From the NCBI GenBank assembly GCA_945868085.1, contig CAMBKF010000019.1, positions 1-37,191 of the forward strand: a DNA stretch of 37,191 nucleotides, in the 5' to 3' direction. Source of the DNA: an uncultured Oscillibacter sp. Its GTDB lineage: Bacteria > Bacillota > Clostridia > Oscillospirales > Oscillospiraceae. The stretch's first letter is position 1. Every line of letters begins with the position of its first letter. A program made the position numbers and the translations under genes. The notes under the pieces were generated by a model. It saw only the letters and a program-made list of their open reading frames with translations. It ran no database searches and was not told where the DNA came from. Positions 13,031-36,765 of this stretch are shown here, in pieces.

Positions 13031-13048
13031 TCAGATAAGGAGGAAACG

Positions 13049-13690: not shown

Positions 13691-13729
13691 GAACTGGCGA
13701 AAAACCTTTTTAAAAAAGAGGAAATCAAT

Positions 13730-16745: not shown

Positions 16746-16790
16746 ATTTGAGCGTGTCGAAAATTCCTGCGAGTTTTTTGATACGCTGAA

Positions 16791-16820
16791 AAGCCGCCGC
16801 CCGCAGGGGCGGCGGTTTTT
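16791..16820 (+). terminator. Rho-independent terminator ending the ddl-aminopeptidase operon
   Basis: GCCGCCGCCC - GCAG - GGGCGGCGG followed by TTTTT. Confidence 0.95.
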
Positions 16821-16821
16821 A

Positions 16822-16849
16822 TTGACAATGCGGCAGATTTTGGTATAAT
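16822..16849 (+). promoter_or_regulatory. Promoter of the DegV gene (and probably glyA)
   Basis: A consensus -35 TTGACA (16822-16827), 16-nt spacer, and consensus -10 TATAAT (16844-16849) preceded by TGG. The strongest promoter in the window, placed directly after a terminator. Confidence 0.9.
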
Positions 16850-16902
16850 GGATGTGTTTACATAATATAGCATATCATTAACGAAAAAGGAGATAGAAGG
16901 AA

Positions 16903-17799
16903 ATGAACAGCCAGTTTACCCTTTCTTGCTGCTCCACGGTTGACCTCCCCTATGCGCACCTGGTGCAGCGGCAGATCCCCGTCCTGTTTTACACCTATGT
17001 GGTGGACGGGCAGGAGTATGTGGACGACATGGGTCGGGATCCGGAGGCCCTGCCCCGGTTTTACCGCTTTTTGCAGGAGGGGAAGCTCCCCCAGACCTCC
17101 CAGATCAATGTGGCCACCTATATGGAGTTTTTCGAGCAGCAGCTGCAGAAGGGCGATCTGCTGCACATTGCCTTCACCTCCGGCCAGTCCGGCTCGGTGA
17201 ACAATGCCTATATCGCCGCCGAGACGCTGCGGGAGAAGTATCCGGAGCGGAAGATCCAGGTCATCGACTCCCTGTGCTCCTCCTCGGGCTACGGCCTGCT
17301 GGTGGACGAGGCCGCCGACCTGCGGGATGCGGGGAAGTCCCTGGAGGAGACCGCCCAGTGGGTGCTGGCGAACCGCAACAAGGTACACCATCAGTTCTTC
17401 TCCTCTGACATGACCCAGTTCCGGCGGACGGGCCGGGTGTCCGGCGCGGCGGCCATGGTGGCCACGGTGCTGAACATCTGCCCCATCATGCGCCTGAACG
17501 ACGAGGGGCGCATCATCGCCTACGACAAGGTCCGGGGCAAGAAAAAGGCCGTGGCCGTGACGGTGGAGAACATGCTGCAGCACGCACAGGGCGGTGCGGA
17601 CTACGCCGGGCGGTGTTATATCTGCAACTCCGCCTGCCCGGAGGACGCGAAGCTTCTGACGGACGCCATCGAGGAGAAGTTCCCGAAACTGAAAGGCAAG
17701 ATCGTCCAGTGCGACATCGGCACCATCATCGGCTCCCACGCGGGCAAGGGCACCGTGGCGGTGTTCTTCATGGGCGACGAGCGGCCGCATATGGAATAA
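16903..17799 (+). CDS. DegV family fatty-acid-binding protein
   Basis: A 298-residue DegV/FakB-type protein. The N-terminal strand with STVDLP, the PQTSQINVATY segment (FakB-like TSQPS position), AFTSGQSGSVNNA and the later DMTQFRRTGRVSGAAA follow the family order. FakB proteins hold a fatty acid for phosphorylation by FakA; family members in clostridia are numerous and their individual ligands are mostly unknown. No fakA kinase gene is nearby. AAGGAG lies before ATG 16903. It is 90 nt upstream of glyA, with a perfect hairpin in the gap but no terminator U-tract, so read-through into glyA is likely. Confidence 0.9.
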   Translation: MNSQFTLSCCSTVDLPYAHLVQRQIPVLFYTYVVDGQEYVDDMGRDPEALPRFYRFLQEGKLPQTSQINVATYMEFFEQQLQKGDLLHIAFTSGQSGSVNNAYIAAETLREKYPERKIQVIDSLCSSSGYGLLVDEAADLRDAGKSLEETAQWVLANRNKVHHQFFSSDMTQFRRTGRVSGAAAMVATVLNICPIMRLNDEGRIIAYDKVRGKKKAVAVTVENMLQHAQGGADYAGRCYICNSACPEDAKLLTDAIEEKFPKLKGKIVQCDIGTIIGSHAGKGTVAVFFMGDERPHME

Positions 17800-17805
17800 A
17801 AAGCA

Positions 17806-17836
17806 TTGCCGGAAAAACCTTTGGTTTTTCCGGCAA
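17806..17836. other. Perfect 14-bp inverted repeat between the DegV gene and glyA
   Basis: TTGCCGGAAAAACC - TTT - GGTTTTTCCGGCAA. On the plus strand it is followed by GGGGTTTGC rather than a U-tract, so it is not a standard terminator for the DegV gene. It could stabilise RNA 3' ends or separate expression of the two genes. Confidence 0.7.
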
Positions 17837-17889
17837 GGGGTTTGCAGCAAAATATTGAATGGGAAAGACGCTATAGGAGAGACAACAGT

Positions 17890-19146
17890 TTGGAGAATTT
17901 TTTGAAGGAAGGCATGGACTATCTGGCCCAGGAGGACGGGGAGGTGGGCGCGTGGCTGCGGCGGGAGTATCAGCGGCAGCAGGAAAACATCGAGCTCATC
18001 GCCTCGGAGAACATCACCTCTCCGGCGGTGATGGCCGCTGTGGGCAGCTGCCTGACCAACAAGTACGCCGAGGGATACCCCGGGCGGCGGTATTACGGCG
18101 GGTGCGAGTATGTGGACGAGATCGAGCGGCTGGCCATTGACCGGGCCAAGGCCCTGTTCGGGGCGGAGTACGCCAACGTGCAGCCCCATTCCGGGGCACA
18201 GGCCAATTTGGCGGCTTACGCGGCCCTTTTGCAGCCGGGCGATACCTTTGTGGGAATGGATCTCTCCGGCGGCGGCCATCTGACCCACGGGGCGGCGGTG
18301 AACCAGTCGGGGAAGCTCTACCGGGCCGTCAGCTACGGGGTGGACCAACAGACCGGACGCATCGACTATGACCGGGTGGAGGACATCGTGAGAGAGGCCC
18401 GGCCCAAGCTGCTGGTGGCCGGGGCGTCCGCCTATCCCCGGGCGCTAGATTTTAAGGCCTTCGCGGACATCGCTCACCGCCACGGGGCGCTGCTGATGGT
18501 GGATATGGCCCACATTGCGGGGCTGGTGGCCGGCGGCCAGCATGAGAGCCCCGTGCCCTATGCCGACGTGGTGACCACCACCACCCACAAGACCCTCCGG
18601 GGGCCTCGGGGCGGGGTGATCCTGGCTAAAGAGGAATGGGCCAAGAAAATAAACAGCGCCGTATTCCCCGGCATGCAGGGCGGGCCGCTGCTGCATGTCA
18701 TCGCGGGGAAGGCGGTGTGCTTCCGGGAGGCCATGGAGCCGGCGTTCCGGGACTACGCCCGGCGGACGGTGGAAAACGCCGCCGCCCTGGCCAAGGCCAT
18801 GCTGGCAAACGGCTTCGACCTGGTATCCGGCGGCACGGACAACCACCTGATGCTGGTGGACCTGCGCAGCCACGGCATCACCGGCCGGGACCTGCAGGAG
18901 CGGCTGGACGGGCTGCACATCACCCTGAACAAAAACGCCATCCCCGGCGACCCGGAAAAGCCCATGGTCACCAGCGGTGTGCGCATAGGCACCCCCTGCG
19001 TCACCACCCGGGGCTTTGGCCCCGCCGACATGGAGGTCATCGCCCGGTGCATCCATCTGGCCTGCCGCAATGACCCGGCGGACCGGGCGTTCATCCTGGA
19101 CACCGTCAGGGAGCTGGCGGAGCGGTATCCTATGTATAAAGGTTGA
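17890..19146 (+). CDS. glyA: Serine hydroxymethyltransferase
   Basis: A 418-residue PLP enzyme interconverting serine and glycine with tetrahydrofolate as one-carbon acceptor. Signatures are [14 protein letters not shown] near the N-terminus, [41 protein letters not shown] and [14 protein letters not shown] with the PLP-binding Lys234. I place the start at TTG 17890 because TAGGAG lies 9-10 nt upstream and the protein then begins at the expected family N-terminus. The open frame extends back through the hairpin at 17806 without a ribosome site; ATG 17914 is a shorter alternative. A terminator follows. Confidence 0.96.
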
Positions 19147-19173
19147 CAAGTAAATGGTTTCTAAGAAAAAAGA

Positions 19174-19205
19174 CCCTCTGCGCGACTGCGCAGGGGGCCT
19201 TTTTG
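19174..19205 (+). terminator. Rho-independent terminator after glyA
   Basis: CCCTCTGCGC - GACT - GCGCAGGGGG, followed by CCTTTTTG; one G-T wobble in the stem. Confidence 0.9.
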
Positions 19206-19241
19206 CGGCCAAAAACTTGGGCAGACCGGGCATCTGCGCTG

Positions 19242-19308: not shown

Positions 19309-22300
19309 ATGAACAAAAAGAGGATCCGGCAGATGAATACGCTTTTGCTGCGCAGACTGCAGAAGCGGCCCGCAGGGGACTATTTCGCCCGGCGGAAGGA
19401 GTTCTTGCAGGGGCTGGAGCGGGAGAACTATATGCAGCGCTTTGCGCCGCTGCTGGATGGCGGACGGGTGCAGTGCGCGCAGGCACTGGAGCTGTGCCGG
19501 GGGGAGCTGGAGCAGCTGTGCCCCCAGGCGCCCCAGGAGGGCTGGCTGCCCTATGCCTTTGACTACGCCAGACAGCAGCTTTTCCCGGAGCCGGGGAAGA
19601 AATTCACCTGCGGGGCCGGGGCGGCCTTTCTGCTGTCGGTATTGCAGGTGCTGTTTGACGCGGAGCGGGAGCTGCAGCCCTTTGACCCCATGTGGGATTT
19701 CGCCTTTTTAAGCGAGGAGGAGCTGGAGGGCAGCCCCTGCGCGGCGGGCTATGGGCAGATGCTGCGGCTGTGGAAGCGGGAGTATGTGTATGAAATGATG
19801 CGCCTGGGCCTGGAGGTCACGCCGTTCCGGGCGCTGGAGCATATTGCGGGAGTGCATCACATCGCCGTGACTATGGGCCGGAAACTGCGGGAGACCGGGA
19901 TCCCTGTGGACCTGGCCCTGGTGTCCGGCAGCGCCGCCGGGCACGACATCGGCAAATTCGGCTGCCGGCCGGGGGAGAGGGTACCGTACCTGCACTACTA
20001 CTACACGGACCTCTGGTTCCGGCGGCGCAAGCTCTCGGACATCGGCCATGTGGCCGCCAACCACTCCGTGTGGGACCTGGAGCCGGACTATCTGTCCGTG
20101 GAGTCGCTGCTGCTGATCTACGCGGATTTCCGGGTGAAGCAGACCTGGGGGCCTCACGGGGAGGAGATCACCTGCATTTCCACCCTGTCCGAGGCCTTTG
20201 ACGTGATTTTGTCCAAGCTGGACGGAGTGGATGAGCAGAAAAAGCAGCGCTACCGCCGGGTCTACACCCGGCTGCGGGATTTTGAGCGCTTTTTGACCGA
20301 GCGGGGGGTGGACACCACCCTCCAGGGCCGGAATATGCCGCCCCGGAAAGAGAAGCCGGCGGCGCTGATGACGGACGAGGAGGCCCTGGATGTGCTGCGC
20401 CTGGTGTGCGTGGAGCACAACATCCGGCTGATGGACCGGCTCACAGGCCTGCGCAGCTTTGCCCAGCTGCTGGAGCAGGCCCGGGGGGAGACGGACTGGC
20501 GGCGGCTGCGGGCTTATCTGGGCGTGATCGAATCCTACTCCCTGTATCTGCGTCTGCCGCAGAAAATGGAGACCCTGGCGTTTCTCTATGAACTACTGAT
20601 GCACCGGGAGGGTGACATCCGCCGCCAGGCGGCGGCACTGATGGGCGCCATCATCGCCGATTTCCACGCGGGCTATGTGAAGGAGCGACCCCGGGACAGC
20701 AAGCCCCTGGGGAATGTCACCGACCTGGGCCAGTGGAAGCTGTATCTGGAGAAGATCATTTTCCCGGATCACAAGCTGATGCCCCAGTACCGCAGCTGGA
20801 TCGGCTATACCCTGAAGTTTGCGGTAAACTCCCTGCTGCAGCACTGCCCGGGCCGGGAGGAGGGCTTTCTCGACTGCCTGCTGGCCTATGGCCGCAGCGG
20901 CGGACGGATGGAGCCGGATGTAGCCTTCCGGCTGCTGGATACCTTTGCGGCGCTGCCCCTGGACCGCTGCACCCCGGCGCAGCGGGAAACGCTGCTGCGC
21001 TTCGCGGAGGTTTCGGCCCGGTCCCGGGAACTGACGGTGCGCACCTCCGCCGCGCTGCTGCTGCGGGCGCTGCTGGCGGCCATGCCCGGGGAGCCGCGGC
21101 TGCAGAACGCGCTGCGGAAAATGCACTGCGGCGACAGCACCTCGCTGACCCTTCTGCGCAGCCGGCTGCTGGAGGGGGAGGCGGTGCGCCTGCCGGACGA
21201 GACCATCTCGGAGATCTTTTTGGATAACCTGAAAACCGCCACCCCGTGGATCATCCGGCGGATGAACATCCTCCTGCTGACGGAGCATGCCAAGGCCGGC
21301 GGCGGCCAGGTGCTGCACATCGCCGCCCATTTTTCCAACCTCATCAAGGTCAGCGACCGGGTCACCGTGCGCCACAGCGCCGGCGGCGCGCTGCTGGAGC
21401 TGGCGCCGCTGCTGAGCGTGGATCAGCGCAATGAGATCGCTGTGGAGCTGTGTCGGGGCCTGGAGCTGGGGCAGCAGGAATTCACCAAGTATATCCCGGA
21501 GTATCTGGGGCGTTTTGCCCTGTGGCTGCCGCCGGAGCAGCTGGATGAGCTTTTGGCGGGGCTGGCCGCCTCCCTCTCCTCCTCGGAGGGGCACATCGTG
21601 GCCTCGGCCCTGGACACCGCCGCGGAGATATTGGAGACCTACACCGTCTATCGCGGACGCTTCCCGGAGGACGAGGAGACCCGCCGCGGCCGGGCCCGGC
21701 GGCTGCTGGGCATGCTGATGAAGGGCACGGCGGGCATCGACATGGGCACCCGGCAGGAGGCCATGTACCTGCTGGGACGGCATGTGTTCGGCTCGCCGGT
21801 GCTGGACCGGGAGGAGAAATGCCGGGCCCTGCAGCTGACGGTCCGGCGCATTTTGGCCATGTGCCAGGCGGAGAGCGAGAGCGGCCTGCACTTTTACTAC
21901 CGGGCCGCCATGCTGGGCCGGCTCTACCGGCTCCTGGTGGAGCAGGAGCTGCTGCGCGGGGGCGTATCCTTTGCCCCGCCCCGGCCCATAGCCTTCTTCC
22001 CCGGCACCTTCGACCCCTTCACCCTGTCCCACAAGGGCATCGTCCGGGCCATCCGGGACGAGGGCTTTGAGGTGCTGCTGGCCATCGATGAATTTTCCTG
22101 GTCCAAGCGCACCCAGCCCTACCGCGTCCGGAGGGAGATCGCGGCCATGTCCGTGGCGGACGAGTTTTATGTACACATATTCCCGGAGGATTTTCCGGTG
22201 AATATCGCCAATCCCGAAAATCTGCGCCGCCTGCGCCGGGCGTTCCCGGGGCGGGAGGTGTCCATTGTGGTGGGCAGCGATGTGGTGGCCCACGCCTCCT

Positions 22301-24078
22301 CGTACCGCAAGCCCGCGGAACCGGATTCCATCCACAGCTTTAACCATGTGATCTTCCGCCGGGCCGGTGCCGACATGGCCGGGGACTACGGCTGCATCAG
22401 CGGCAAGGTGCTGGAGCTGACCCTGCCCGAGGAGCTGGAGGAGATCAGCTCCACCCGCATCCGGGAGGCGGTGGACGCCAACCGGGACATCTCCCACCTC
22501 ATCGATCCCATGGCTCAGGAATTTATCTACCGCCACAGCCTGTACCTGCGGGAGCCCCTGGATAAGCCCGTGCTGCGGACGGAGGACCTGGAATTTATTC
22601 CCTGCGGGCCGGAGGAGGAGCGCCTGAGCGCGCTGCTGCGCCGGGCCCTGCCTGCCTCCGCCGCAGAGACGGTGCTGCGGGCCCTGGGCCAGAGCGGCGA
22701 CGACGTGCTGCTGCTGACCAACGGGGAGACCGGGACGGTGCTGGGGGCGGCCAGCTACTGCTGCATGGATTCCCAGCATCTGTTCTCCCGATTGGGGAGC
22801 GCGGAGCTGGCGGCCTTTGTCCGGCAGAACGCCGGCGGGCGGACGCTGCTGGTGAGCGGCCTGTTCGTACCGCAGACGGCCCAGCAGAATGAGCTGGGAC
22901 AGCTGCTTTTGACGGAGGTGCTGACCCTGGCCCTGGGCCGGGAATACACCTATGCCATCTACACGCCCCTGGAGGGCTTTGCGGACGCCTGGGTGCGGGA
23001 TCTGCTGCGGCTGCAGGGCTTTGTGCCCGTGCCGGGCAGCTGCTCCCGCAGCGCCCTGGCGGTGGATATGCGCCAGCCCATTATCCTCAGCAACAACGTG
23101 GGCACCACCATCAAGCCGCCCTTGTCCACGGCTCCCATGGTGGTGGCCGCCGTGGCGGCGGCCCACCGGCGGCTGCAGGAGACCATGACGCGTCTCCAGC
23201 CGGGGGGACTGGTGCTGAGCCTGTCCGCCGGAGTGATCTACCACCGCCTGCTGCGGCGGATCACCGAGTGCAACGGCGTGCCCGAGGAGCCCACGCAGCC
23301 CCGGCGGCTGGGGCCGGACATCTGCGTGCCCTACGGCAAGCTCATGCGCGGTGTCATCGTGCCCAACACCGTCACCAAGACCCTGCGCACGGACAAGGTG
23401 TATGAACCGGACCTGTCGTCTTATTCCATTGAGGCGTATCCGGATTACTCGCCCCTGGAGGACCAGGTGCGCACCATCCGGGCCTTTGACCGGCCCGCCA
23501 TCCTGGTGGACGATGTGCTCCATGACGGCAAGCGCATCCGCCGCCTGGCGCCGCTGCTGCGAAAGACCGGTACCCAGGTGAAAAAGGTGCTGGTGGGCTA
23601 TCTCACGGGCACCGGCCGGGACCTGATGGAGAGCCTGGGCTATGACGCCGAGGGCGTGTACTATCTGCCCAACCTGCGGATGCGGTTTGTGGAGTCCACG
23701 CTGTACCCCTTCATCGGAGGGGACACCATCCGCCGCAGCGAGCGGATGGAGGGCGGCCTGCAGCCGTCTGTGAACCGGATCCTGCCCTATGCCTCCCCGG
23801 AGTTCGGGCCGCTGGATCCGGAGACCGCCTGGGCCCTGAGCCTGTGCTGCCTGGAAAACGCACGGAATATCCTGCTGGCCCTGGAGACGGAGTACCGGCG
23901 GATCTTTGCCCGGAACCTGACGCTCAGCCGCCTGAGTGAGGCGGTGATCCTGCCCCTGTGCCCCGACAAGGGCAGCAGCATGACCTATGATCTGAGCCGG
24001 GGGGCCTCCACCTACCTGGATGACGACATCGAACTGCTGAAGCGGATGCGCTTTATGACGAAGGAGACGAAGGTATGA
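19309..24078 (+). CDS. Giant multidomain protein: HD hydrolase-like + helical region + NadD-like nucleotidyltransferase + GNAT-like + phosphoribosyltransferase-like
   Basis: A 1589-residue cytosolic protein in one uninterrupted frame; no signal peptide or membrane segment. Residues about 175-300 carry an HD-type metal site: HIAGVHH at 178, GHDIGKFG at 211 and NHSVWD near 251. Residues about 350-870 are leucine-rich, helical and HEAT-like. A nucleotidyltransferase begins with FFPGTFDPFTLSHKG (GTFDPF at 899) and ends with the NadD-type EISSTRIREAV (about 1045-1055) and DPMAQEFIYRHSLY. About 1095-1240 looks like a degenerate GNAT fold (LLVSGLFVPQTAQQNELGQL). About 1260-1480 resembles a type I PRTase with the PRPP-type loop AILVDDVLHDGKRI near 1397. 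Separate NadD and YqeK (HD) proteins often sit together in Firmicutes, so a nicotinamide or related nucleotide theme is plausible. Catalytic activity of each domain is inferred. The next gene overlaps by ATGA. Confidence 0.8.
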   Translation: MNKKRIRQMNTLLLRRLQKRPAGDYFARRKEFLQGLERENYMQRFAPLLDGGRVQCAQALELCRGELEQLCPQAPQEGWLPYAFDYARQQLFPEPGKKFTCGAGAAFLLSVLQVLFDAERELQPFDPMWDFAFLSEEELEGSPCAAGYGQMLRLWKREYVYEMMRLGLEVTPFRALEHIAGVHHIAVTMGRKLRETGIPVDLALVSGSAAGHDIGKFGCRPGERVPYLHYYYTDLWFRRRKLSDIGHVAANHSVWDLEPDYLSVESLLLIYADFRVKQTWGPHGEEITCISTLSEAFDVILSKLDGVDEQKKQRYRRVYTRLRDFERFLTERGVDTTLQGRNMPPRKEKPAALMTDEEALDVLRLVCVEHNIRLMDRLTGLRSFAQLLEQARGETDWRRLRAYLGVIESYSLYLRLPQKMETLAFLYELLMHREGDIRRQAAALMGAIIADFHAGYVKERPRDSKPLGNVTDLGQWKLYLEKIIFPDHKLMPQYRSWIGYTLKFAVNSLLQHCPGREEGFLDCLLAYGRSGGRMEPDVAFRLLDTFAALPLDRCTPAQRETLLRFAEVSARSRELTVRTSAALLLRALLAAMPGEPRLQNALRKMHCGDSTSLTLLRSRLLEGEAVRLPDETISEIFLDNLKTATPWIIRRMNILLLTEHAKAGGGQVLHIAAHFSNLIKVSDRVTVRHSAGGALLELAPLLSVDQRNEIAVELCRGLELGQQEFTKYIPEYLGRFALWLPPEQLDELLAGLAASLSSSEGHIVASALDTAAEILETYTVYRGRFPEDEETRRGRARRLLGMLMKGTAGIDMGTRQEAMYLLGRHVFGSPVLDREEKCRALQLTVRRILAMCQAESESGLHFYYRAAMLGRLYRLLVEQELLRGGVSFAPPRPIAFFPGTFDPFTLSHKGIVRAIRDEGFEVLLAIDEFSWSKRTQPYRVRREIAAMSVADEFYVHIFPEDFPVNIANPENLRRLRRAFPGREVSIVVGSDVVAHASSYRKPAEPDSIHSFNHVIFRRAGADMAGDYGCISGKVLELTLPEELEEISSTRIREAVDANRDISHLIDPMAQEFIYRHSLYLREPLDKPVLRTEDLEFIPCGPEEERLSALLRRALPASAAETVLRALGQSGDDVLLLTNGETGTVLGAASYCCMDSQHLFSRLGSAELAAFVRQNAGGRTLLVSGLFVPQTAQQNELGQLLLTEVLTLALGREYTYAIYTPLEGFADAWVRDLLRLQGFVPVPGSCSRSALAVDMRQPIILSNNVGTTIKPPLSTAPMVVAAVAAAHRRLQETMTRLQPGGLVLSLSAGVIYHRLLRRITECNGVPEEPTQPRRLGPDICVPYGKLMRGVIVPNTVTKTLRTDKVYEPDLSSYSIEAYPDYSPLEDQVRTIRAFDRPAILVDDVLHDGKRIRRLAPLLRKTGTQVKKVLVGYLTGTGRDLMESLGYDAEGVYYLPNLRMRFVESTLYPFIGGDTIRRSERMEGGLQPSVNRILPYASPEFGPLDPETAWALSLCCLENARNILLALETEYRRIFARNLTLSRLSEAVILPLCPDKGSSMTYDLSRGASTYLDDDIELLKRMRFMTKETKV

Positions 24079-27181: not shown

Positions 27182-27940
27182 ATGGATTGCAGCCAGCTCT
27201 ATATTTCTACCGTTTCCGCCGGGTGCGATGAGATCGCCGCCCGGTACGGCCTGGGCCTGGAGATTGCCGAATACTGCACCGCCGCGAATCTGGATGCCCC
27301 CATTCCGGAGGTGGTGACAGCTGCACAGTGCCACCGGCAGGCGGCGAAACGGTTTGTGTTCCATGCGCCGTTCAATGAGCTGTGTCCCGCCGCCATCGAC
27401 CCCCTGGCTGTCAGCCTGGCCCGGCATCGCTACGCCCAGGCCCTGGCCGCCGCCCAGGATTGGGGTTGCCGGCTGCTGGTGGTTCACACGGGATTTATCC
27501 CGTGGGTATACTATCCGGAGTGGTTCGTGGAGAAATCCGTGGAGTTTTGGCGGGAGTTTCTGCCGCAGGTGCCGGAGGGCATGGTCCTGTGCCTGGAAAA
27601 CGTCATGGAGCCGTCGCCGCAGATTCCGGTGGACATCATCCGCCAGGTGGACGATCCCCGGCTGCGGCTGTGCCTGGATGTGGGCCACGCCAATGCGGAG
27701 CTGTCCCGCACCCCGGTCATGGAGTGGGTGGAGGTGTGCAGGCCCTACCTGCGGCATCTGCACCTGCACAACAATGCCGGCGGCGGGGACCTTCACGACC
27801 CCCTGAAGCGGGGCACCATCCCCGTGGAGCAGGTGCTGCACGCACTGGCCCGGGAAGAACACCTAACCTATACATTGGAGACATTACAGGCGGAGGAGAA
27901 CGTCCGCTGGCTGCTGGAAAAAGGATTTTTAACGCTATGA
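27182..27940 (+). CDS. TIM-barrel sugar-phosphate isomerase/epimerase-like protein
   Basis: A 252-residue xylose-isomerase-like (AP endonuclease 2 superfamily) protein. Candidate metal ligands follow the family order: FHAPFNE, LLVVHTGF, CLENVMEP, CLDVGHAN, LRHLHLHNN with GDLHD, and YTLETL at the C-terminus. AAGGAG precedes ATG 27182. It overlaps cobT by ATGA and is first in the cob operon, implying a role tied to corrinoid assembly or to the lower ligand, but no known cobalamin step uses this fold as far as I recognise. A generic isomerase co-opted for ribose-phosphate or base chemistry would be one option. The substrate is unassigned. Confidence 0.8.
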   Translation: MDCSQLYISTVSAGCDEIAARYGLGLEIAEYCTAANLDAPIPEVVTAAQCHRQAAKRFVFHAPFNELCPAAIDPLAVSLARHRYAQALAAAQDWGCRLLVVHTGFIPWVYYPEWFVEKSVEFWREFLPQVPEGMVLCLENVMEPSPQIPVDIIRQVDDPRLRLCLDVGHANAELSRTPVMEWVEVCRPYLRHLHLHNNAGGGDLHDPLKRGTIPVEQVLHALAREEHLTYTLETLQAEENVRWLLEKGFLTL

Positions 27941-29028
27941 ATTACGAAGAACGGCTCCTAAAGGAGCTGCCCCATATCACGCCCGCCAATGCCGATGCCA
28001 TGGCCCGGGCGGCGGTATACCAGGGCACCCTGGCCAAGCCCCCGGGCAGCCTGGGGGCGCTGGAGAATATCTATATCCGCCTGTGCGGCATCAGCGGGAA
28101 GCTGCACCCGGTCTATAGCCCCTGCCGCATTATCGTCCTCTGTGCGGATAACGGCGTGGTGGAGGAGGGCGTATCCGTGACGCCCCGGAGCGTCACGGCG
28201 GCCCAGGCGGTGAACATGACAAACTATTGCACCGGCATGAGCGCTATGGCCCATCACTTTGGAGATGAGATACAGGTGGTGGATGTGGGCATCGCCGATG
28301 AATACGATTGCCCGGCTATCCTGAACCGAAGGATCCTGCCCGGTACCCGCAATTTAGCGCGGGAGCCCGCTATGACCCGGCAGGAGGCGGCCCGGTCCGT
28401 CTGGACGGGTATGGAGCTGGCCCGCCAGGCGAAGGATGAGGGCGTGGCCATATTAGGCGCCGGGGAGATGGGCATCGGCAACACCACCACTTCCGCAGCG
28501 GTACTGGCAGCCCTGACGGGCCTGCCGGTGGAGGCTGTTACCGGCCGTGGCGGCGGCATGACCGACGCAGGCTTCCTGCGAAAAAAGCAGGTCATCACCG
28601 ACGCCCTGGCCCTGCACCGGCCGGACAAAAAAGATGTGCTGGACGTTTTGAGCAAGGTGGGCGGATTGGACATAGCCGCCATGTGCGGCGTGTTCCTGGG
28701 GGCGGCCCGGCAGCGGCTGCCGGTGGTCATCGATGGGTTTATCTCCGTGGTGGCGGCCCTGTGCGCCGGGCGGCTGTGCCCGGCGGCAGAGGACTATTTC
28801 TTCGCCTCTCACGCCTCCCACGAGGTGGGCTATGCCGCCGCTGTAAAGGAGTTGGGCCTGGAGCCGTGGCTGCACCTGGGCATGCGCCTGGGAGAGGGCA
28901 GCGGCTGCCCCATCGCCTTTCGGGTGATGGAGGCGGCCTGCGCCGCCGCCGAGGGCATGGCCACCTTTGCCGGCGCTGCCATCGACGACAGCTATCTGGA
29001 TGACATCCGGGGAAAGGATTGCTTCTGA
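27937..29028 (+). CDS. cobT: Nicotinate-nucleotide--dimethylbenzimidazole phosphoribosyltransferase
   Basis: A 363-residue enzyme that activates the lower-ligand base (DMB or another base) to its alpha-ribotide using nicotinate mononucleotide. Recognised by KPPGSLGALE near residue 30, CADNGVVEEGVSVTP, GEMGIGNTTTSAAVLAALTG, TGRGGGMTDAGF, VVIDGFIS and SHASHEVGY, which together define CobT; a Glu in the LGEGSGCP stretch corresponds to the catalytic region. I start at ATG 27937, which overlaps the previous stop; the frame is open further upstream but that part is the antiparallel reading of the TIM-barrel gene. Nearby cobU and cobS complete the nucleotide-loop pathway. The base used cannot be told from sequence. 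Confidence 0.95.
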   Translation: MNYEERLLKELPHITPANADAMARAAVYQGTLAKPPGSLGALENIYIRLCGISGKLHPVYSPCRIIVLCADNGVVEEGVSVTPRSVTAAQAVNMTNYCTGMSAMAHHFGDEIQVVDVGIADEYDCPAILNRRILPGTRNLAREPAMTRQEAARSVWTGMELARQAKDEGVAILGAGEMGIGNTTTSAAVLAALTGLPVEAVTGRGGGMTDAGFLRKKQVITDALALHRPDKKDVLDVLSKVGGLDIAAMCGVFLGAARQRLPVVIDGFISVVAALCAGRLCPAAEDYFFASHASHEVGYAAAVKELGLEPWLHLGMRLGEGSGCPIAFRVMEAACAAAEGMATFAGAAIDDSYLDDIRGKDCF

Positions 29029-29029
29029 T

Positions 29030-29569
29030 ATGACCGTGTTTCTCTCCGGCGGCTGTAAAAACGGGAAATCCACACTGGCCGAGCAGACCGCCGTGTACTT
29101 GAGCCGGCCGGGGCAGCTGTATTATCTGGCCACCATGATCCCCCACGATGAGGAGGACCGCAGCCGCATTGCCCGCCATGTGGCCAGCCGCTCGGGCCTG
29201 GGCTTTCAGACCATTGAGTGCGGCCTGGGGCTGGAGGCGGCACTGCAGGATGCTGATGTGGAGGGCACCTATCTTCTGGATAGCGTCACCGCCCTGCTTT
29301 CCAATGAGATGTTCCGCCCGGACGGCTCGATAGATCTCACCGCCCCGGAGCGGGTGGCCCGGGAGCTGAAAGCCTTGGCCCGGCGAATGAAAAGCATGGT
29401 GTTCGTCAGCGACTATATCTATTCCGACGCCATGATTTACGGCGACCTCACGGAGCAGTATCGCCGGGGCCTGGCCCATATCGACCGGAGCCTGGCCGCC
29501 GTGTGTGACGCTGTAGCAGAGGTGAGCTTCGGGGGCCGCATCGTTTACAAAGGAGAACTGCCTGTATGA
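29030..29569 (+). CDS. cobU: Adenosylcobinamide kinase / adenosylcobinamide-phosphate guanylyltransferase (divergent CobU)
   Basis: A 179-residue P-loop enzyme that phosphorylates adenosylcobinamide and adds GMP to give adenosylcobinamide-GDP. The P-loop is SGGCKNGKSTLAE (residues 6-18), where most CobU proteins have GGARSGKS. YYLATM and RIARHVASRSGLGFQTIE match the segment that carries the guanylylated His. The C-terminal segment VFVSDYIYSDAM replaces the usual VSNEVGxGIVP, so it is a divergent member. A short second CobU-like gene at 30319 retains that missing signature. ATG 29030 lies 1 nt after the cobT stop with GGAAAGGA upstream, and the stop overlaps cobS by ATGA. Confidence 0.88.
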   Translation: MTVFLSGGCKNGKSTLAEQTAVYLSRPGQLYYLATMIPHDEEDRSRIARHVASRSGLGFQTIECGLGLEAALQDADVEGTYLLDSVTALLSNEMFRPDGSIDLTAPERVARELKALARRMKSMVFVSDYIYSDAMIYGDLTEQYRRGLAHIDRSLAAVCDAVAEVSFGGRIVYKGELPV

Positions 29570-30306
29570 AAAAATGGTTCACCGGCTTTTCTATGTGTTG
29601 GGGGATGTTTTGTGCCATTCCCAACCCCATCCGCCGTTGGGACAGCGGCTGCTACCGGCGGATGCTCCTGTGCCTGCCTTTTTTAGGGGGCGTTTTGGGG
29701 CTTATCTGGGCGGGGATCGGCCTTTTGCTGCTGCGCCTTTCGGCTCCGGGGCCTGTTTTTGCCCTGTGCATGACGGCGGCCCCCTGGTGCCTTACGGGGT
29801 TTATCCACCTGGACGGGTTCATGGACTGCTGTGACGCGGTGCTCTCCCGCCGGGACCAGGCCCGCCGCCGGGAGATCCTCAAGGATTCCCATGTGGGTTC
29901 CTTTGCCGTTATCTGCCTGGTGCTGCTGGCCATGGCCGGCTACAGCGTGTGGTCCTGCCCGGCGGAGGTGGAGACGCTGTGGGCCCTGCCCCTGGTGTGC
30001 GCCGGAGCCCGGTGCGTCAGTGCCGGGGCGGTGCTGAGCCTTAAACCCTTGGAGACCAGCGGCTACCATGCCATGGGGCAGAGTCGGGGCGGCGCGGCCG
30101 CCGCGTGGATTTTGGCGGCGGTATCCATAGGGCTGGGTGCACTGGTTCCCGGATGGGGCTTTTTAGCCCCGGCGGCTGCCACCCTTGTGGCCGGCGTCGC
30201 GGTTTTTTCTCTGCGGCGGAATTTGGGCGGCATGTGCGGGGACATCTCCGGCGCCGCCATCACTTTGGGCGAATTGGCCGGCAGCGCCGCGCTGCTGCTG
30301 TTATAA
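29566..30306 (+). CDS. cobS: Adenosylcobinamide-GDP ribazoletransferase (cobalamin synthase)
   Basis: A 246-residue integral membrane enzyme joining adenosylcobinamide-GDP with the alpha-ribazole nucleotide from CobT, the last assembly step of cobalamin. The metal-binding signature GFIHLDGFMDCCDAVLSRR (about residues 77-95), then ILKDSHVGSFAV, is the CobS hallmark; the canonical form is HxDGxxDxxDxx. Several hydrophobic helices follow, and PNPIRRWD near residue 20 is typical of the N-terminus. The size is normal. It overlaps cobU by 4 nt and is followed after 12 nt by the short CobU-like gene. Confidence 0.95.
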   Translation: MKKWFTGFSMCWGMFCAIPNPIRRWDSGCYRRMLLCLPFLGGVLGLIWAGIGLLLLRLSAPGPVFALCMTAAPWCLTGFIHLDGFMDCCDAVLSRRDQARRREILKDSHVGSFAVICLVLLAMAGYSVWSCPAEVETLWALPLVCAGARCVSAGAVLSLKPLETSGYHAMGQSRGGAAAAWILAAVSIGLGALVPGWGFLAPAAATLVAGVAVFSLRRNLGGMCGDISGAAITLGELAGSAALLLL

Positions 30307-30318
30307 GGAGGGAAGCCT

Positions 30319-30675
30319 ATGGATCTCATCATCGGCGGGGCCTATCAGGGGAAGCTGGCCTACGCTATGGAGCATTTTCATCTGACGCAGGAGGACCTGG
30401 CCTGCTATGAGGGGGGCTTTGACACCTCCCGCCGCTGCATCTGCTATTTAGAGCAGGCGGTATATGCCGCCGTGGCCGCCGGGGAGCCCTTTGTGCTGCC
30501 CCGGCTGCGCCCGGACGCGGTGGTGCTCTGCACGGATGTGTCCTGCGGAGTGGTGCCTATGGATAAGACCCAGCGCCTGTGGCGGGAGGAAGTGGGCCGG
30601 GCCGTGTGCGCCCTGGCCCGGCAGGCGGACTCCGTCACCCGGATCTTCTGCGGTCTGCCGCTGCGGCTGAAGTAA
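30319..30675 (+). CDS. Short CobU-like protein (118 aa)
   Basis: Aligned by eye to CobU, this protein keeps only the two ends. It has an N-terminal P-loop-like IIGGAYQGKLAYA (residues 4-16) with the usual Ser/Thr after Lys replaced by Leu. Its C-terminal half is very CobU-like: VVLCTDVSCGVVPMDK for VSNEVGxGIVP, RLWREEVGRAVCALARQADSV for the FRDxxGxxNQxLA stretch, and IFCGLPLRLK at the very end. The middle with the guanylylated His is missing. It may be a non-catalytic partner or a second subunit that complements the divergent CobU at 29030. AAGGAGGGAAGCCT lies upstream of ATG 30319. It ends the cob operon. Confidence 0.75.
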   Translation: MDLIIGGAYQGKLAYAMEHFHLTQEDLACYEGGFDTSRRCICYLEQAVYAAVAAGEPFVLPRLRPDAVVLCTDVSCGVVPMDKTQRLWREEVGRAVCALARQADSVTRIFCGLPLRLK

Positions 30676-30681
30676 TCTGCG

Positions 30682-30725
30682 CCGCGGCAAAAAATGCCGA
30701 AAAAGGGGCTTGTATTTTGCCGCGG
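30682..30725. other. Inverted repeat spanning the -35 region of the riboswitch promoter
   Basis: CCGCGGCAAAA (30682-30692) and TTTTGCCGCGG (30715-30725) form a perfect 11-bp inverted repeat with a 22-nt spacer. The right arm overlaps the -35 box and spacer of the promoter at 30710-30738, so it could be an operator or the 3' end of the cob transcript; no U-tract follows. Confidence 0.6.
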
Positions 30726-30738
30726 GGTGTGTTAAAGT
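30710..30738 (+). promoter_or_regulatory. Promoter of the riboswitch / surface-protein transcript
   Basis: TTGTAT (30710-30715), 17 nt, TAAAGT (30733-30738). It places transcription start just before the cobalamin riboswitch. Confidence 0.7.
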
Positions 30739-30744
30739 AAAGAC

Positions 30745-30905
30745 AACTCAATAGCGGGACAGCGTGTGCCGGGTCATCCGGCAGCGGAATGGGGTGAAAA
30801 GCCCCGCGAGACGGTCACTGTGAAGCCGGGTTTACCGGATAAGTCAGATACGCAGGGCGCTGCTCCCGGACCACTGCCATACCCGGGGTCGAAGCGCGAG
30901 AAATG
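30745..30905 (+). promoter_or_regulatory. Cobalamin (adenosylcobalamin-class) riboswitch
   Basis: The core has the conserved order: GTGCCGG...CCGGCA hairpin, GGAATGGGGTGAAAAGCCCC (the B12-box region GGTGnAAnnCC), GACGGTCACTGTGAAGCC for the CCCGCnACUGUAA-like part, and AAGTCAGATACGC for the AAGYCAGGAnACC end. It is followed 16 nt later by an intrinsic terminator, so ligand binding should stop transcription before the downstream 1893-residue surface protein. Subtype was not resolved. Confidence 0.9.
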
Positions 30906-30920
30906 ATAGGGATTATTGCG

Positions 30921-30953
30921 CCCGGCTGCCTATGGCAGCCGGGTGCTTTTTTT
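30921..30953 (+). terminator. Riboswitch-controlled intrinsic terminator
   Basis: CCCGGCTGCC - TAT - GGCAGCCGGG, a perfect 10-bp stem, then TGC and TTTTTTT. It lies between the cobalamin aptamer and the coding region and is the likely expression platform. A second hairpin without a U-tract (GGGGG at 30992-30996 with CCCCC at 31017-31021) follows in the remaining leader. Confidence 0.93.
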
Positions 30954-31083
30954 GCCAAGCCGAAGCGGCGCAGCAGCCGCATCTTTCCATAGGGGGCCGG
31001 AGTTTAAGCCGCTCCGCCCCCGATTCCTCGGCAAATTCGCCATAGAGGCGTTTGCATAAAATTCGAAAGAAAGGAAATAAGAG

Positions 31084-34000
31084 ATGAAGAAAAAGATTTT
31101 ATCCCTGCTGCTGGCATTGGTGATGGCCCTGTCCCTGGTGCCCACCTCCGTGCTGGCAGCGCCCGATGACCTGGGCCAGGTCCGTGTCATCGTGGAAAAC
31201 ACTACCTTCACAAAACCTGTGGATGGTAAAGCTCCTGCCTGGACCGGCACGCTGGTGGATACCTGGGTGAAGCTCACCGAGGATTCTACCATGATGAGCT
31301 GTGTCACCGAGGCCCTGAAAGCCGGCAATCACAAGGTGACCGGCGCTGAAAGCGGCTACATCGGCGAGATCGATGGCCTGGGTGAGTTTGACGGCGGCTC
31401 ACAATCCGGCTGGATGGGCACCCTCAACGACTGGTTTGCCAACGAGGGCTTCGCCGCTTTTACCGTGGCGAACGGCAAGCTGGAGAGCGGCGACGAGATC
31501 CGCGTCATGTACAGCTGCGCCTACGGCAATGACCTGGGCGGCAGCTGGGGCAACAATGACACCACCGTCAAGGCCCTGACCTTCAGTGCCGGCGAGCTGT
31601 CTCCCGCCTTCCATAAGGACACCCACAGCTACACGCTGAAGCTGGCCGCCGATGTCAGCAGCGTGGTGGTGACGCCCACTGCCAGCAACAAGAACTTCCA
31701 GGTCCGCACCAGCGTGGACGGCACGGAGTATAAGCGCACGGCGGAGATTCCCGTGGCGGACGGCACCGTCATCACCGTGAAGTGCGGCGATCCCTCCTGG
31801 CCCAGCATGAACGGCAAACCCGAAAAGGCGGAGGAGTATACCATCACTGTGGAGCAGGCGGCTCCCGCCGCCGTGAAGGTGACGCTCCGCTCCCAGATGG
31901 CGGGCGGCTATCTCCACGCGCCCCAGGAGGTGGAGGTCACTGCCCTTGACGCCGAGAAATACGGCTTTACCGATGCGGTGGAGGGCGTTTCCGCTCTGGA
32001 CGCACTGGTCAAGGCCCACGAGCTGGCCTTTGGCAAGGACTTTACCAAGGACACCGTCGGGGAATACCTGGCTGTGGGCAGCAGCGGCTGGATCTCCAAG
32101 ATCTTCGGCATTCCCACCTACGCCTGCGGCTTCTATGTGAACCAGGGCTATCCCAATGACGGTACTCCCTCCTCCTATGGCGGCTACAACGGCACCATGG
32201 TCACCCAGACCGCTCTGCTCAGCGGCGACGTGGTGGACTTCTATATCATGAGCGACGACGCATATTACTCCGACTATTACACCTGGGTGGACGCTCCTGC
32301 CGAGATGTATGTGGGCCAGACGGTCACCGCTACCGTTACCGGTTTCTATGCCATGAGCGGCTACCTGTATAAGGATCCCGCTTCCCTCAAGGCCGCGGCC
32401 AAGCCCCTGGAGGGGGCAAAGCTGGGCTGGATGGATCCCGAGACCGGCAATGTCACCGCCATTGAAGGCGCTGTTACCGATGAAAACGGCCAGGCCACCT
32501 TCACCGTGGCCGATGGCTTCACCGGCTATCTCACCGCCGTGAGCAACGAGGACGAGGAGGTTTACGTCCTGCTCAACCCCACCGCCAAGGTCAAGGAGAT
32601 CCCCGTGGTCACCGTGGACCTGACGGGCCTGCACAGCGCCCAGCTGGCATCCCTGAAGCTGTATAGCTATGCCGGCGGCGTCAAGGGTGACGTGGACCTG
32701 CTGGCCGGCAAGTCCACCGTGGCCGATGGCTACAAACTGAAGTATGCCGATGTGAAGCTGCCTGTCGGCAACTACTGGGTTCAGGGCTACAATGAAGCCG
32801 GCCAGTATAACGGCGGCATCGTTGTCACCGTGGCGGAGGACACCACTGCCATCACCTTCCAGCGGGTCTATGCGATCTATGCCACCAACAACGGCTGGAT
32901 CGAGAACACCGACTACACCATCGACTACCAGGTGGTCAGCGCCGACGGCATGAACCGCAAGGCCGAGCCAGGCACCTCCACTAACTTGGGCACCGCCCGC
33001 ACCTCCGGCATTTTTGTTGAGGGCGACACGCTGAAAGCAACCTTGACTCCTGTGGGGGATAAGGCGGCGGACTATAATCCCATCACCGTCAAAAAATCCC
33101 GCAGCGAAACGACGGATAAAGGTGCGCTGGACCTCACTGCCAAGATCCCCGTGGCCGTGCCCGTCACCGTCACCGCCCCCGCCGGGTCCACTGTCAGCAT
33201 GGGCGAGTTCGGCAACTACTATGTCTATGACTTCGCCACTCCTCTGTCTACCAAGACCGAGGGCGACACCATGACCGTCACCTTCCTCCTGTCGGAGACC
33301 AGCAAGAACCACTTCCTCCGTGTGCAGCACCCGGACGGCGTGACCTACTGGACCTTTGGCAAGTACAAGGCAGGTGCTACCTTCAATGTGACCAAGGACG
33401 ACCTGCACATCGGAGACGAGTCCTTCACCAAGGACACGGTGAACCGCTTCAATAAGAATGTTTATGACCTGGGTAATATATACCTAAATATCAATGAGAA
33501 GGGCTATCTGAACCTGGAGCAGGGGCAGACCCGGGAGCTGGACGTGTTCCGCTGCTGGCAGGCCATTGAAGGCTTCATGAATGCCCAGATCGCCCTGCCG
33601 GATGTGCATTACACCGTGGTGGACCTGAACGGTCAGTCCAGCGATGTGGTGACCATCACCCCCGACGAGAACAACAGCTCCCTGGCGTATATGAAGGCCA
33701 ATAAGGCCGGCACGGCCATCGTCCTGGTGACCTATGACGCCATGACCCATATGCAGGGCCAGACCAGCAACAAGGAAAACCATGGCTTCTCCGCCATCTG
33801 GCCGGAGTGCACCGGCGTGTTCGTGGTGTCCGTGGGGGCGGATGGCTCCTCCATTGCCACCAACATGACCATGGACCGGATGGATGCCACCATAAGCAGC
33901 GATGCACAGAAGGCATTGGATGCCGAGCACGACATCCTGTTCTACCTGGGCGATGCCGGCGCAGCCTACAGCTTTAAGCCCGAGGAAGGCTGCACCGTCA

Positions 34001-36765
34001 CCGTGGCCCGCTCCACCGTCACCGACAAGATGAGCTTTAGCGGCTTCACCGCTGACGGCGTTACCGTGGCCGCCGACGGCACCGTGACGGTTACCGGCCT
34101 CACTACCGGCCGGCACATCCTCTGCGTGGAGAAGGACGGCGTTAAGACCTACCAGGTGGTCACCGCCCGGGGCGTCAGCTATGACTTCCTGGATGCCGAC
34201 GGCAAGGTCCTCCCCGCAGGCACCGAGTTCAAGGCCGGGGACAAGGTGACCGTTCAGTTCCATGGCCTCATTAGCCCCAAGGAGAAGATTTCCGGCGCCT
34301 ATAACTTTAACTTCACCCTGTACTACAAGGGTGCTGACGGCAAATATTATAAGTCCAATCCCGGCGGCTGGGGTGGTGTGTATGACTTCAGCGGCAATCC
34401 TGTCCGCCAGAAGCTTGAGATTACCATCCCCGAGGATTGGGATGGTCTGAGCTTCGACCTGACCGGCGCCATCAATGTGGGCGGCTTTGCAAAAGTCCCC
34501 ACTCACCGCATCCTATCCTATGGTGACGGTATCGACAATCCGTATGGCACAAGTGCTGCTGCTATAGTTTCCCAGCTGCCCGCCCTGTCCCTGAAGCTGG
34601 AGGGCTGGCATGTAAACGACGTTATAGAGAAGATCGACGCCATCGGCGAGGTGACCCTGGAGTCCGAGAGCGCCATCGACGCCGCCCGGGCTGCCTATGA
34701 GGCACTGACGGAGGCTCAGCAGGCCGAGGTCAAGAGCTATGACAAGCTCACCGCCGCCGAGGCTCGCCTGGCCGATCTGAAGGCTGCCAAGGCCGTGGAC
34801 GATATGATCGACGCCATTGGCGAGGTGACCCTGGAGTCCGAGGAGGCCATCGCCGCTGCCCGGGCTGCCTATGAGGCACTGACGGAGGCCCAGCAGGCCG
34901 AGGTCAAGAGCTATGACAAGCTCACCGCCGCCGAGGTTCGCCTGGCGGATCTGAAGGCTGCCAAGGCCGTGGACGATCAGATCGACGCCATCGGCGAGGT
35001 GACCCTGGAGTCCGAGAGCGCCATCGACGCCGCCCGGGCTGCCTATGAGGCACTGACGGAGGCTCAGCAGGCCGAGGTCAAGAGCTATGACAAGCTCACC
35101 GCCGCCGAGGCTCGCCTGGCCGATCTGAAGGCTGCCAAGGCCGTGGACGATATGATCGACGCCATCGGAGAGGTGACCCTGGAGTCTGAGGGCGCCATCG
35201 ATGCTGCCCGGAATGCCTATGACGCTCTGACGGAGGCTCAGCAGGCTGAGGTCAGGAACTATGACAAGCTCACCGCCGCCGAGGCTCGCCTGGCGGTCCT
35301 GAAGCCCGCCAAGCCTGTGGAGAAGCTCATCGACGCCATCGGTGAGGTGACCCTGGGATCCGAGAGCGCCATTGCCGCTGCCCGGAATGCCTATGACGCC
35401 TTGACGGAGGCCCAGCAGGCCGAGGTCAAGAACTATGGCAAGCTTACTGCCGCTGAAGCGGAATACGCCCGGCTGCTGGCCGAGCAGAGCAAGCGCCTGC
35501 AGGAGATCTACGAGACCACCGGCGACTACATCTCCGGCCTGGGCACGCCCGGTGTGGGCTCCGTGGGCGGCGAGTGGATGACCATTGGCCTGTCCCGCTC
35601 CGGCCGCACCGTACCCGCCGGGTACTATGACGCCGTGGTGGAGTATGTGAAGGCCAAGGCCGACGCCAACGAGCGTCTGCACCGGGCCAAGGTCACCGAC
35701 AACGCCCGCATCATCCTGGCCCTGACGGCCATCGGCAAAGACGTGACCAATGTGGGCGGCCATGACCTGCTCAAGGGCCTGGACAACATGGCCTACGTGC
35801 AGAAGCAGGGCATCAACGGGCCCATCTGGACCCTCATCGCCCTGGACAGCCACAATTATCTCACTATGGGCGATGTGACCCGGGAGAAGCTCATTCAGGT
35901 GATCCTGGACGCCCAGCTCACCGACGGCGGCTGGGCCCTCTCCGGCGAGACCGCCGACCCGGACATGACCGCCATGGCCATCCAGGCCCTGGCCCCCTAC
36001 TACAAGACCAATGAGACGGTCAAGGCCGCTGTGGATAAGGCCCTGGAGGCCCTGTCCGCCATGCAGCGCCCGGACGGCGGCTTCGCCAGCTGGGGCACCG
36101 TGAACAGCGAGTCCTGCGCCCAGGTCATCGTGGCCCTGACGGCTCTGGGCATTGACCCCGCCACCGACAGCCGCTTTGTGAAGAACGGCGTGACCGTTCT
36201 GGATGCTCTGACCAGCTTCTATGTCACCGGCGGCGGCTTCAAGCACATCGCGGACGGCGAGCTGGACGGCATGGCCACCGAGCAGGGCTACTACGCCCTG
36301 GCGGCCTACTACCGCTTCGTAAACGGCCAGACCGCTCTGTATGACATGAGCGATGTGACCATCCAGACCGACAGCCACACCCATGCCTTTGGCGCCTGGA
36401 CTGTGACCACTCCCGCCACCTGCACTACGGACGGCGTGGAGACCCGTTCCTGCGCCTGCGGCGAGACGGAGACCCGGGCCATCCCGGCCACCGGCCATGT
36501 GGATGCCGACCATGACGGCAAGTGTGACGTCTGCCAGGCAGTCATCACCCCTGTGGATCCGGATAATCCCGATAAGCCTACGCCGGATAATCCTGACAAG
36601 CCTACGCCGGATAACCCTGATGATCCCGGTAAGACCGATCCGACCGAGCCCGGCACCGATAAGCCCGCCACCGGCGACAGCGGCGTGCTGGTGTGGGTCA
36701 TCGCTCTGCCCACCGCAGCTTTGGCTGCAGCCTTCGTGCTCAAGCGCAAGGAACGGGAGGCGTAA
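31084..36765 (+). CDS. Riboswitch-controlled, exported transcobalamin-like surface protein (DUF4430 domains + alpha/alpha toroid, sortase-type anchor)
   Basis: A 1893-residue secreted protein. A signal peptide (residues 1-25, KKK then a hydrophobic core, cleavage after SVLA) is followed by a DUF4430/transcobalamin-C-like domain (about 30-155; [20 protein letters not shown]), a cadherin-like beta domain (about 160-262) and a second DUF4430-like domain (about 263-410; [19 protein letters not shown]). A long set of beta domains runs to about 1170. Five 58-residue helical repeats follow (1184 to about 1473), then an alpha/alpha-toroid with prenyltransferase-type repeats (about 1478-1755; [26 protein letters not shown]). 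A Cys-containing [14 protein letters not shown] module, a Pro/Asp wall-spanner and a C-terminal KPATGD, hydrophobic helix and KRKEREA tail complete it. Toroid plus DUF4430 is the make-up of intrinsic factor and transcobalamin. With the riboswitch and cob neighbours, corrinoid binding at the cell surface is strongly suggested but not proven. Confidence 0.85.
34633..35502 (+). repeat. Five tandem 174-bp repeats encoding 58-residue helical units
   Basis: Units begin at 34633, 34807, 34981, 35155 and 35329, exactly 174 bp apart, each starting IDAIGEVTL and containing [10 protein letters not shown] and [12 protein letters not shown]. Units 1-3 are almost identical at the DNA level; unit 4 and especially unit 5 have drifted. 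They probably form a coiled or three-helix spacer between the beta-rich N-terminal part and the toroid domain. Copy number is likely to vary between strains. Confidence 0.95.

Follow-up and report, generated by a model that had tools for sequence, protein, structure and literature searches.

Why should a gene that appears to be led by a cobalamin-sensing RNA encode a very large protein destined for the cell surface? The 37,191-nt contig CAMBKF010000019.1 (assembly GCA_945868085.1) of an uncultured Oscillibacter sp., here called the window and numbered over its whole length, raises this question near its right end, where a structured leader RNA precedes an open reading frame (ORF) of 1893 codons. 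An initial annotation, made from the sequence alone, compared the domains of the product with those of animal intrinsic factor and transcobalamins, and proposed that it binds corrinoids outside the cell when vitamin B12 is scarce, in the way of BtuG-type lipoproteins in Bacteroides. Our analyses support this interpretation overall, with qualifications: the cobalamin riboswitch, the DUF4430 fold and the alpha/alpha-toroid fold were all borne out computationally. The likely product, in our view, is a corrinoid-capture protein that is anchored to the wall, repressed by adenosylcobalamin (AdoCbl) and serves the energy-coupling factor (ECF) importer ECF-CbrT.

The leader belongs to a variant class of cobalamin riboswitches

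To characterize the leader, we used a covariance model, R1, seeded with the leaders of five relatives (L038 and L039, which precede two homologs in a congener, and L069, L072 and L075, from other genera), with the window left out. R1 matched the window at a single site up to E 10, the aptamer (120.7 bits, E 4.3e-35). The core common to the five seeds reads GGAA-N-GGGUGA-...-GGUCACUGUGA-...-AAGUCAGA. In an alignment of 67 distinct R1 sequences that was itself fitted to the structure, 93.7% of cells were paired, all five helices covaried, and covariation was 0.715, compared with 0.192 in shuffled alignments (0 of 500 shuffles) and at most 0.094 when the structure was slid. RNAalifold, applied to the same alignment, kept 24 of 30 predicted pairs via double changes, and six R1 sequences aligned with MAFFT, including that of the window, were 81.0% paired with a covariation of 0.475 versus 0.218.

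Rfam did not report this aptamer at gathering scores: over the whole window its one match was an ssnA RNA elsewhere, with no cobalamin match at the aptamer site, and the site was also absent from the RF00174 matches across the organism's own genome. The AdoCbl family RF01482 aligned weakly to part of the AdoCbl core there (18.5 bits versus a gathering score of 50, E 0.53), and the match was not the top row of its search. Read alone, the Rfam miss would speak against a riboswitch, a reading overturned by the R1 match. The aptamer of the initial annotation therefore stands on its R1 score and covariation but falls short of the Rfam gathering score.

In a sample of 200 genomes of the taxonomic family, which was also used for scans with the window protein, R1 matched 76 (E <=0.01). 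Pfam matches of the first ORFs after R1 elements (n=65) included CbiK (5), CbiD (2), CobT (2), CbiQ (2), DUF4430 (14) and SLH (16). Because B12 genes are among these ORFs, their company, together with core letters read by eye, identifies the R1 class as a cobalamin riboswitch. R1 elements share with RF00174 and RF01482 the AdoCbl core letters, P4, P6, an L5-L13 complementarity (by inspection) and a regulon of B12 genes; they differ in that none of the 20 examined reached the gathering score, although seven matched a cobalamin family below it. Since Rfam gathering scores miss these elements, B12 regulons of the taxonomic family may be under-annotated. Locus L116 carries an R1 element (1501-1647) followed within 50 nt by an RF00174-type aptamer (1694-1846, 37.8 bits), possibly a tandem riboswitch.

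An intrinsic terminator follows the aptamer, as the initial annotation held, with a stem of 13 pairs rather than 10 and a predicted stem-loop energy of -28.5 kcal/mol. One terminator-like site was found, and since shuffles average 0.8, the count alone is no proof; by inspection, a hairpin and T run also follow the aptamer in leaders L038 and L039. The promoter proposed upstream (TTGTAT/TAAAGT at 30710/30733) was absent from the output of our scan and is unconfirmed.

The surface protein combines the two fold classes of animal B12 carriers

The predicted 1893-residue protein was confirmed as an ORF, with a Sec-type signal peptide by inspection (Table 1). Pfam recognizes its first DUF4430 domain over cut-off (residues 67-131, E 5.1e-8), and VIA-align ranks the beta domains of haptocorrin, intrinsic factor and transcobalamin first among structures resembling it, in agreement with profile comparison; the resemblance to animal carriers that had been claimed for this fold thus holds. 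The second of the two DUF4430-like domains initially described gave no Pfam match even at E 10 and no fold match with VIA-align. In an hhalign comparison, its profile (9 sequences) aligned with that of DUF4430 (23 sequences) over 71 columns with 90.2% probability (E 1.5e-6), so that residues ~266-402 are reasonably supported as a divergent copy.

The toroid, also predicted at the outset, scores just over the Pfam Prenyltrans cut-off (residues 1577-1690, E 4.5e-6, 26.7 bits versus 26.5, a margin of 0.2; E 2.3e-7 when searched alone) and yields a confident structure model (residues 1469-1765; predicted local distance difference test 96.7, predicted template modelling score 0.94). Its best Foldseek match is transcobalamin (2v3n, E 1.7e-5), with other toroids scoring close. 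Two results weigh against our interpretation: the toroid fits terpene cyclases as well as or better than transcobalamin, both in VIA-align and in profile comparison, and its sequence profiles found no match to animal carrier toroids, the nearest being squalene-hopene and drimenyl cyclases. The fold match to transcobalamin is therefore not specific, and at the sequence level a specific homology between the two was not supported.

These similarities bring in an alternative, that the toroid has enzymatic activity towards a lipid or a bound corrinoid, for instance as a relative of class II terpene cyclases, with DUF4430 as the only binder. Squalene-hopene and drimenyl-type cyclases carry a DxDDTA motif. 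The toroid has a similar DPDxTA stretch, and in alignment A4 its second Asp and its Thr are invariant, but the position between them, an Asp in the cyclases, is hydrophobic in the rows examined. The toroid is also secreted and surface-bound. Together with the gene linkage described below, these observations make a catalytic role rather improbable.

Domain order separates the window protein from the animal carriers as well. It does not place a toroid directly before a beta domain in one chain; its DUF4430 precedes the toroid, and the two are far apart. The reversed order noted initially thus holds for this protein but does not characterize the system in general: in relatives, the order of intrinsic factor is found in adjacent genes and, in some cases, in single chains. 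Of 291 distinct ORFs that contain a toroid (T), a DUF4430 domain (D) or both, 13 had the order TD, 2 TDD, 8 DTD and 1 TDT; single proteins with the toroid before DUF4430 occur at L069, L147, L173 and other loci. Compared with animal intrinsic factor, transcobalamin and haptocorrin, then, the window protein has the same two fold classes but a reversed order, long spacers, a bacterial-surface location, a toroid with no specific sequence relation and corrinoid binding that is only predicted. Because its domain order does not fit and its toroid likeness is not specific, we refrain from classifying it within the intrinsic-factor family.

Between these domains lie a conserved domain without assigned function (13 copies in the loci examined, and present also in some riboswitch-led surface proteins) and, between it and the toroid, the 58-residue repeats, whose motif starts at residues 1184, 1242, 1300, 1358 and 1416. 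The tail (residues 1860-1893) consists of KPATGD, a hydrophobic segment and KRKEREA. The Pfam anchor model matches it weakly (E 0.1, below cut-off), which leaves the sortase-type tail of the initial annotation a candidate, but the tail is kept, as NTPATGDTG, in the Vescimonas fastidiosa ortholog described below, and judging from these motifs the protein is probably wall-anchored.

Table 1. Features of the surface-protein gene, its leader and the upstream cob genes
Feature	Positions	Strand	Basis or remark
CbiR-like TIM barrel (cobamide remodelling)	27182..27940	+	NCBIfam CbiR 33.9 bits, below cut-off 105; PF01261
CobT	27976..29028	+	Family match; first base is match start, true start unsettled
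CobU	28967..29569	+	Family match
CobS	29566..30306	+	Pfam over cut-off; NCBIfam 101.1, just under cut-off 110
Short protein matching C-terminal third of CobU	30319..30675	+	Family match
Variant cobalamin riboswitch aptamer	30758..30905	+	R1 match and covariation; not over Rfam gathering
P13/L13 hairpin within aptamer	30869-30890	+	
Intrinsic terminator	30918..30953	+	13-bp stem, 3-nt loop, T tract; stem-loop 30918-30946
Secreted, probably wall-anchored protein, 1893 aa	31084..36765	+	ORF confirmed, ATG start
Signal peptide, residues 1-25	31084..31158	+	Sec-type, by inspection
DUF4430 (transcobalamin beta-domain-like), residues 26-150	31159..31533	+	
Cadherin-like beta sandwich, residues 164-257	31573..31854	+	Pfam PF12733, over cut-off
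Second, divergent DUF4430-like domain, residues 266-402	31879..32289	+	Local profile and hhalign
Conserved domain without assigned function, residues 769-1151	33388..34536	+	Local profile
Five 58-residue helical-looking repeats (spacer)	34612..35475	+	174-nt direct repeats; five profile matches
Alpha/alpha toroid, residues 1482-1759	35527..36360	+	Pfam, structure model, Foldseek
Pro-rich wall spacer and sortase-like tail	36559..36762	+	KPATGD at 36661-36678

Many relatives encode both domains beside an ECF-CbrT importer, often with cobalamin riboswitches

The window protein found matches in 120 of the 200 family genomes, some via the repeats only. To quantify the association with riboswitches, we took 35 stretches from 29 other genomes, chosen by window-protein matches, and scored a cobalamin element (RF00174 at E <=0.1, or R1) located between -400 and 1000 nt upstream of any gene bearing one of the domains. 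Such an element was present in 22 of the 35, against ~0.10 expected; five of the 22 were R1 seeds, and RF00174 alone accounted for 16 of the 35 stretches, 14 of them over gathering.

A scan of named genomes, limited to the best 80 of 318 relatives, extended the picture to Oscillospiraceae, Flavonifractor plautii, Sporobacter, Clostridium viride, Fusibacter, Vallitalea, Pelotomaculum, Paenibacillus and others. A frequent arrangement is, in order, a toroid protein of 500-600 aa, a protein of 250-360 aa with a C-terminal DUF4430, EcfT, and EcfA-EcfA'-S. The compact toroid proteins carry SLH domains (20 of 20 scanned) and a signal-peptide-like N terminus (8 of 8 examined), and 8 of 10 DUF4430 proteins examined by inspection begin with a hydrophobic segment. 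The sole Protein Data Bank match of the S part at L059 up to E 10 was 6fnp_A (E 1.1e-9; profile E 5.6e-14), the ECF-CbrT of Lactobacillus delbrueckii according to PMC5997447, and in the linked loci the S component is nearest to this CbrT and is adjoined by EcfT and EcfA. Among 58 loci with at least 6 kb after the toroid, 55 had DUF4430 within 3 kb, 48 had EcfT, 48 EcfA and 44 CbrT; the full order of toroid-SLH, DUF4430, EcfT, EcfA and CbrT-like S was kept in 44 and not kept in 14. When nine such loci were scanned with Rfam, a cobalamin riboswitch scoring over gathering turned up within six of them (L201, L217, L233, L234, L264 and L265), but not in the other three (L218, L229 and L230). In relatives, therefore, both domains share one operon with a B12 importer, which adds a link to B12, and the presence of DUF4430 and CbrT beside the toroid in 44 of 58 loci also speaks against a purely enzymatic toroid.

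The same loci bear on two further explanations. The protein could be a B12-regulated adhesin by which the bacterium attaches to neighbours that produce B12, to mucus or to the B12 carriers of the host, with DUF4430 and the toroid adhesive or structural rather than vitamin-holding: it is large, repeat-rich and surface-located, and several riboswitch-led proteins of relatives are large surface proteins (SLH in 16 of the 65 first ORFs). We regard this as unlikely, since ligand capture better suits the compact forms, in which a toroid-SLH protein and a short DUF4430 protein are encoded right at the transporter, and the standalone lipoprotein-like DUF4430 genes that follow a riboswitch at L187 and L192. 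The latter encode proteins of 168 and 173 aa with a lipoprotein-like signal, each the first ORF after an R1 element. Alternatively, the two domains could bind another cofactor or a metal and merely be co-regulated with B12 genes. A bacterial structure matching the DUF4430 domain, 3u7z, is titled a putative metal-binding protein, and of 14 control genomes, two also gave DUF4430 matches (Lactococcus lactis and Methanosarcina acetivorans), but the recurrent association with CbrT as well as with cobalamin riboswitches makes a non-corrinoid ligand very improbable.

Searching with the toroid by tblastn returned three plasmid and three phage records, which have little bearing on its origin. The unannotated human-faecal contigs MT837027, MT835727 and MT835962, deposited as 'Bacteriophage sp.', contain toroid relatives (30-41% identity) and may be bacterial DNA.

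The importer lies elsewhere in the genome of the window organism

The genome of the window organism is a 1.96-Mb draft that is 84.5% complete and has five DUF4430 places in all. Its contig 14 encodes CbrT (E 1.9e-63) in the same stretch as another DUF4430 protein and EcfT-like and EcfA proteins. A second R1 element (L138, contig 7) precedes a 2477-aa protein, after which a weak DUF4430 protein, MoxR, DUF58, a transglutaminase and a toroid protein follow on the same strand. CbiD was not found in this incomplete draft, and one protein with a B12-binding domain was; by gene content, the genome is consistent with corrinoid salvage. Among three other genomes of the same genus in the sample, one had both a window-protein match and CbrT and two matched neither.

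A full-length ortholog is present in Vescimonas fastidiosa MM35 (WP_212821896.1, annotated 'cadherin-like beta sandwich domain-containing protein'). It has 1566 aa, the same domain order and one repeat versus five, with 80.7% identity over residues 1-1237 and 73.7% over 1395-1780. Its gene is preceded at 169 nt by an R1 element (135.9 bits). The 860-kb replicon that carries the V. fastidiosa copies was deposited as a plasmid.

Directly upstream of the surface gene in the window is a cob cluster (27182-30675) that the initial annotation had not mentioned. Its first product resembles CbiR, for which PMC7733943 describes both the activity and a habit of lying near cobamide genes. Because the V. 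fastidiosa ortholog has other neighbours, we dropped the idea that cob cluster and surface gene form one conserved locus.

The rest of the window holds the ssnA RNA (RF03031; 2978-3025, minus strand; 69.2 bits versus gathering 37.3), four successive minus-strand ORFs of 780, 448, 496 and 262 aa with no Pfam match at E 0.01 (13031-19233), and a plus-strand ORF of 1589 aa whose only match is nucleotidyltransferase-like and lies mid-protein (19309-24078).

A model for corrinoid capture outside the cell

We infer ligand binding, the direction of control, the hand-over to CbrT and the order of events as follows. When AdoCbl is bound to the leader, the P13/L13 arm would be held by the aptamer, so that the terminator forms and transcription stops; when AdoCbl is scarce, termination would be lifted and the surface protein made. 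That cobalamin switches expression off is the stated rule for cobalamin riboswitches in PMC11477304. The protein would then be exported and fixed to the wall, where its DUF4430 domain or domains would bind corrinoids, either alone or, after the manner of intrinsic factor, jointly with a toroid, be it the protein's own or a different one. Captured corrinoids would raise the local concentration for ECF-CbrT in the membrane and, once imported, could be remodelled by the CbiR-like, CobT, CobU and CobS enzymes. In many relatives the proposed system is split between two proteins encoded just before EcfT-EcfA-CbrT: a secreted toroid protein, which its SLH domains would hold in place, and a DUF4430 protein that starts with a hydrophobic segment.

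A broader proposal, which we offer tentatively and would not yet favour, is that Bacillota have a prokaryotic intrinsic factor, in which a two-part clamp, made of a toroid on the cell surface and a DUF4430 domain at the membrane, would close on corrinoids and deliver them to ECF-CbrT, giving this importer an extracellular binding partner. The window organism and Vescimonas would have a fused, sortase-anchored form, and the animal carriers may derive from this pairing or have converged on it.

The proposed role has a counterpart in BtuG and BtuH of Bacteroides, whose domains differ from DUF4430 and the toroid. As presented in PMC6143338 and PMC8941943, these too are surface proteins tied to corrinoid transport, with capture outside the cell, but they serve a Gram-negative outer-membrane receptor, unlike the ECF importer and Gram-positive surface considered here. 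ECF-CbrT of L. delbrueckii is the best match for the S component of the linked operon; there, according to PMC5997447, the S component is itself the substrate binder, whereas here two extracellular partners are co-encoded. We found no description of a bacterial DUF4430-toroid B12 system in the open-licence PMC literature, among the matches listed; one paper that mentions DUF4430 deals with vertebrate B12 binders.

Implications

Corrinoid uptake is less known outside Bacteroidetes and Proteobacteria, and a survey of gut genomes regards identifying the B12 transport systems of numerous genomes as an open problem (PMC6593275). Our data suggest an unnamed route by which Gram-positive bacteria catch B12 outside the cell. 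If this is correct, a widespread gut and environmental group would possess surface B12 scavengers that resemble the carriers of the host and might compete for B12 from the diet. An ECF importer would have a dedicated external capture system. Proteins that now carry no annotation beyond 'prenyltransferase/squalene oxidase repeat', 'cadherin-like' or 'DUF4430' would gain a function, and the origin of the animal B12 carriers would gain a bacterial comparison.
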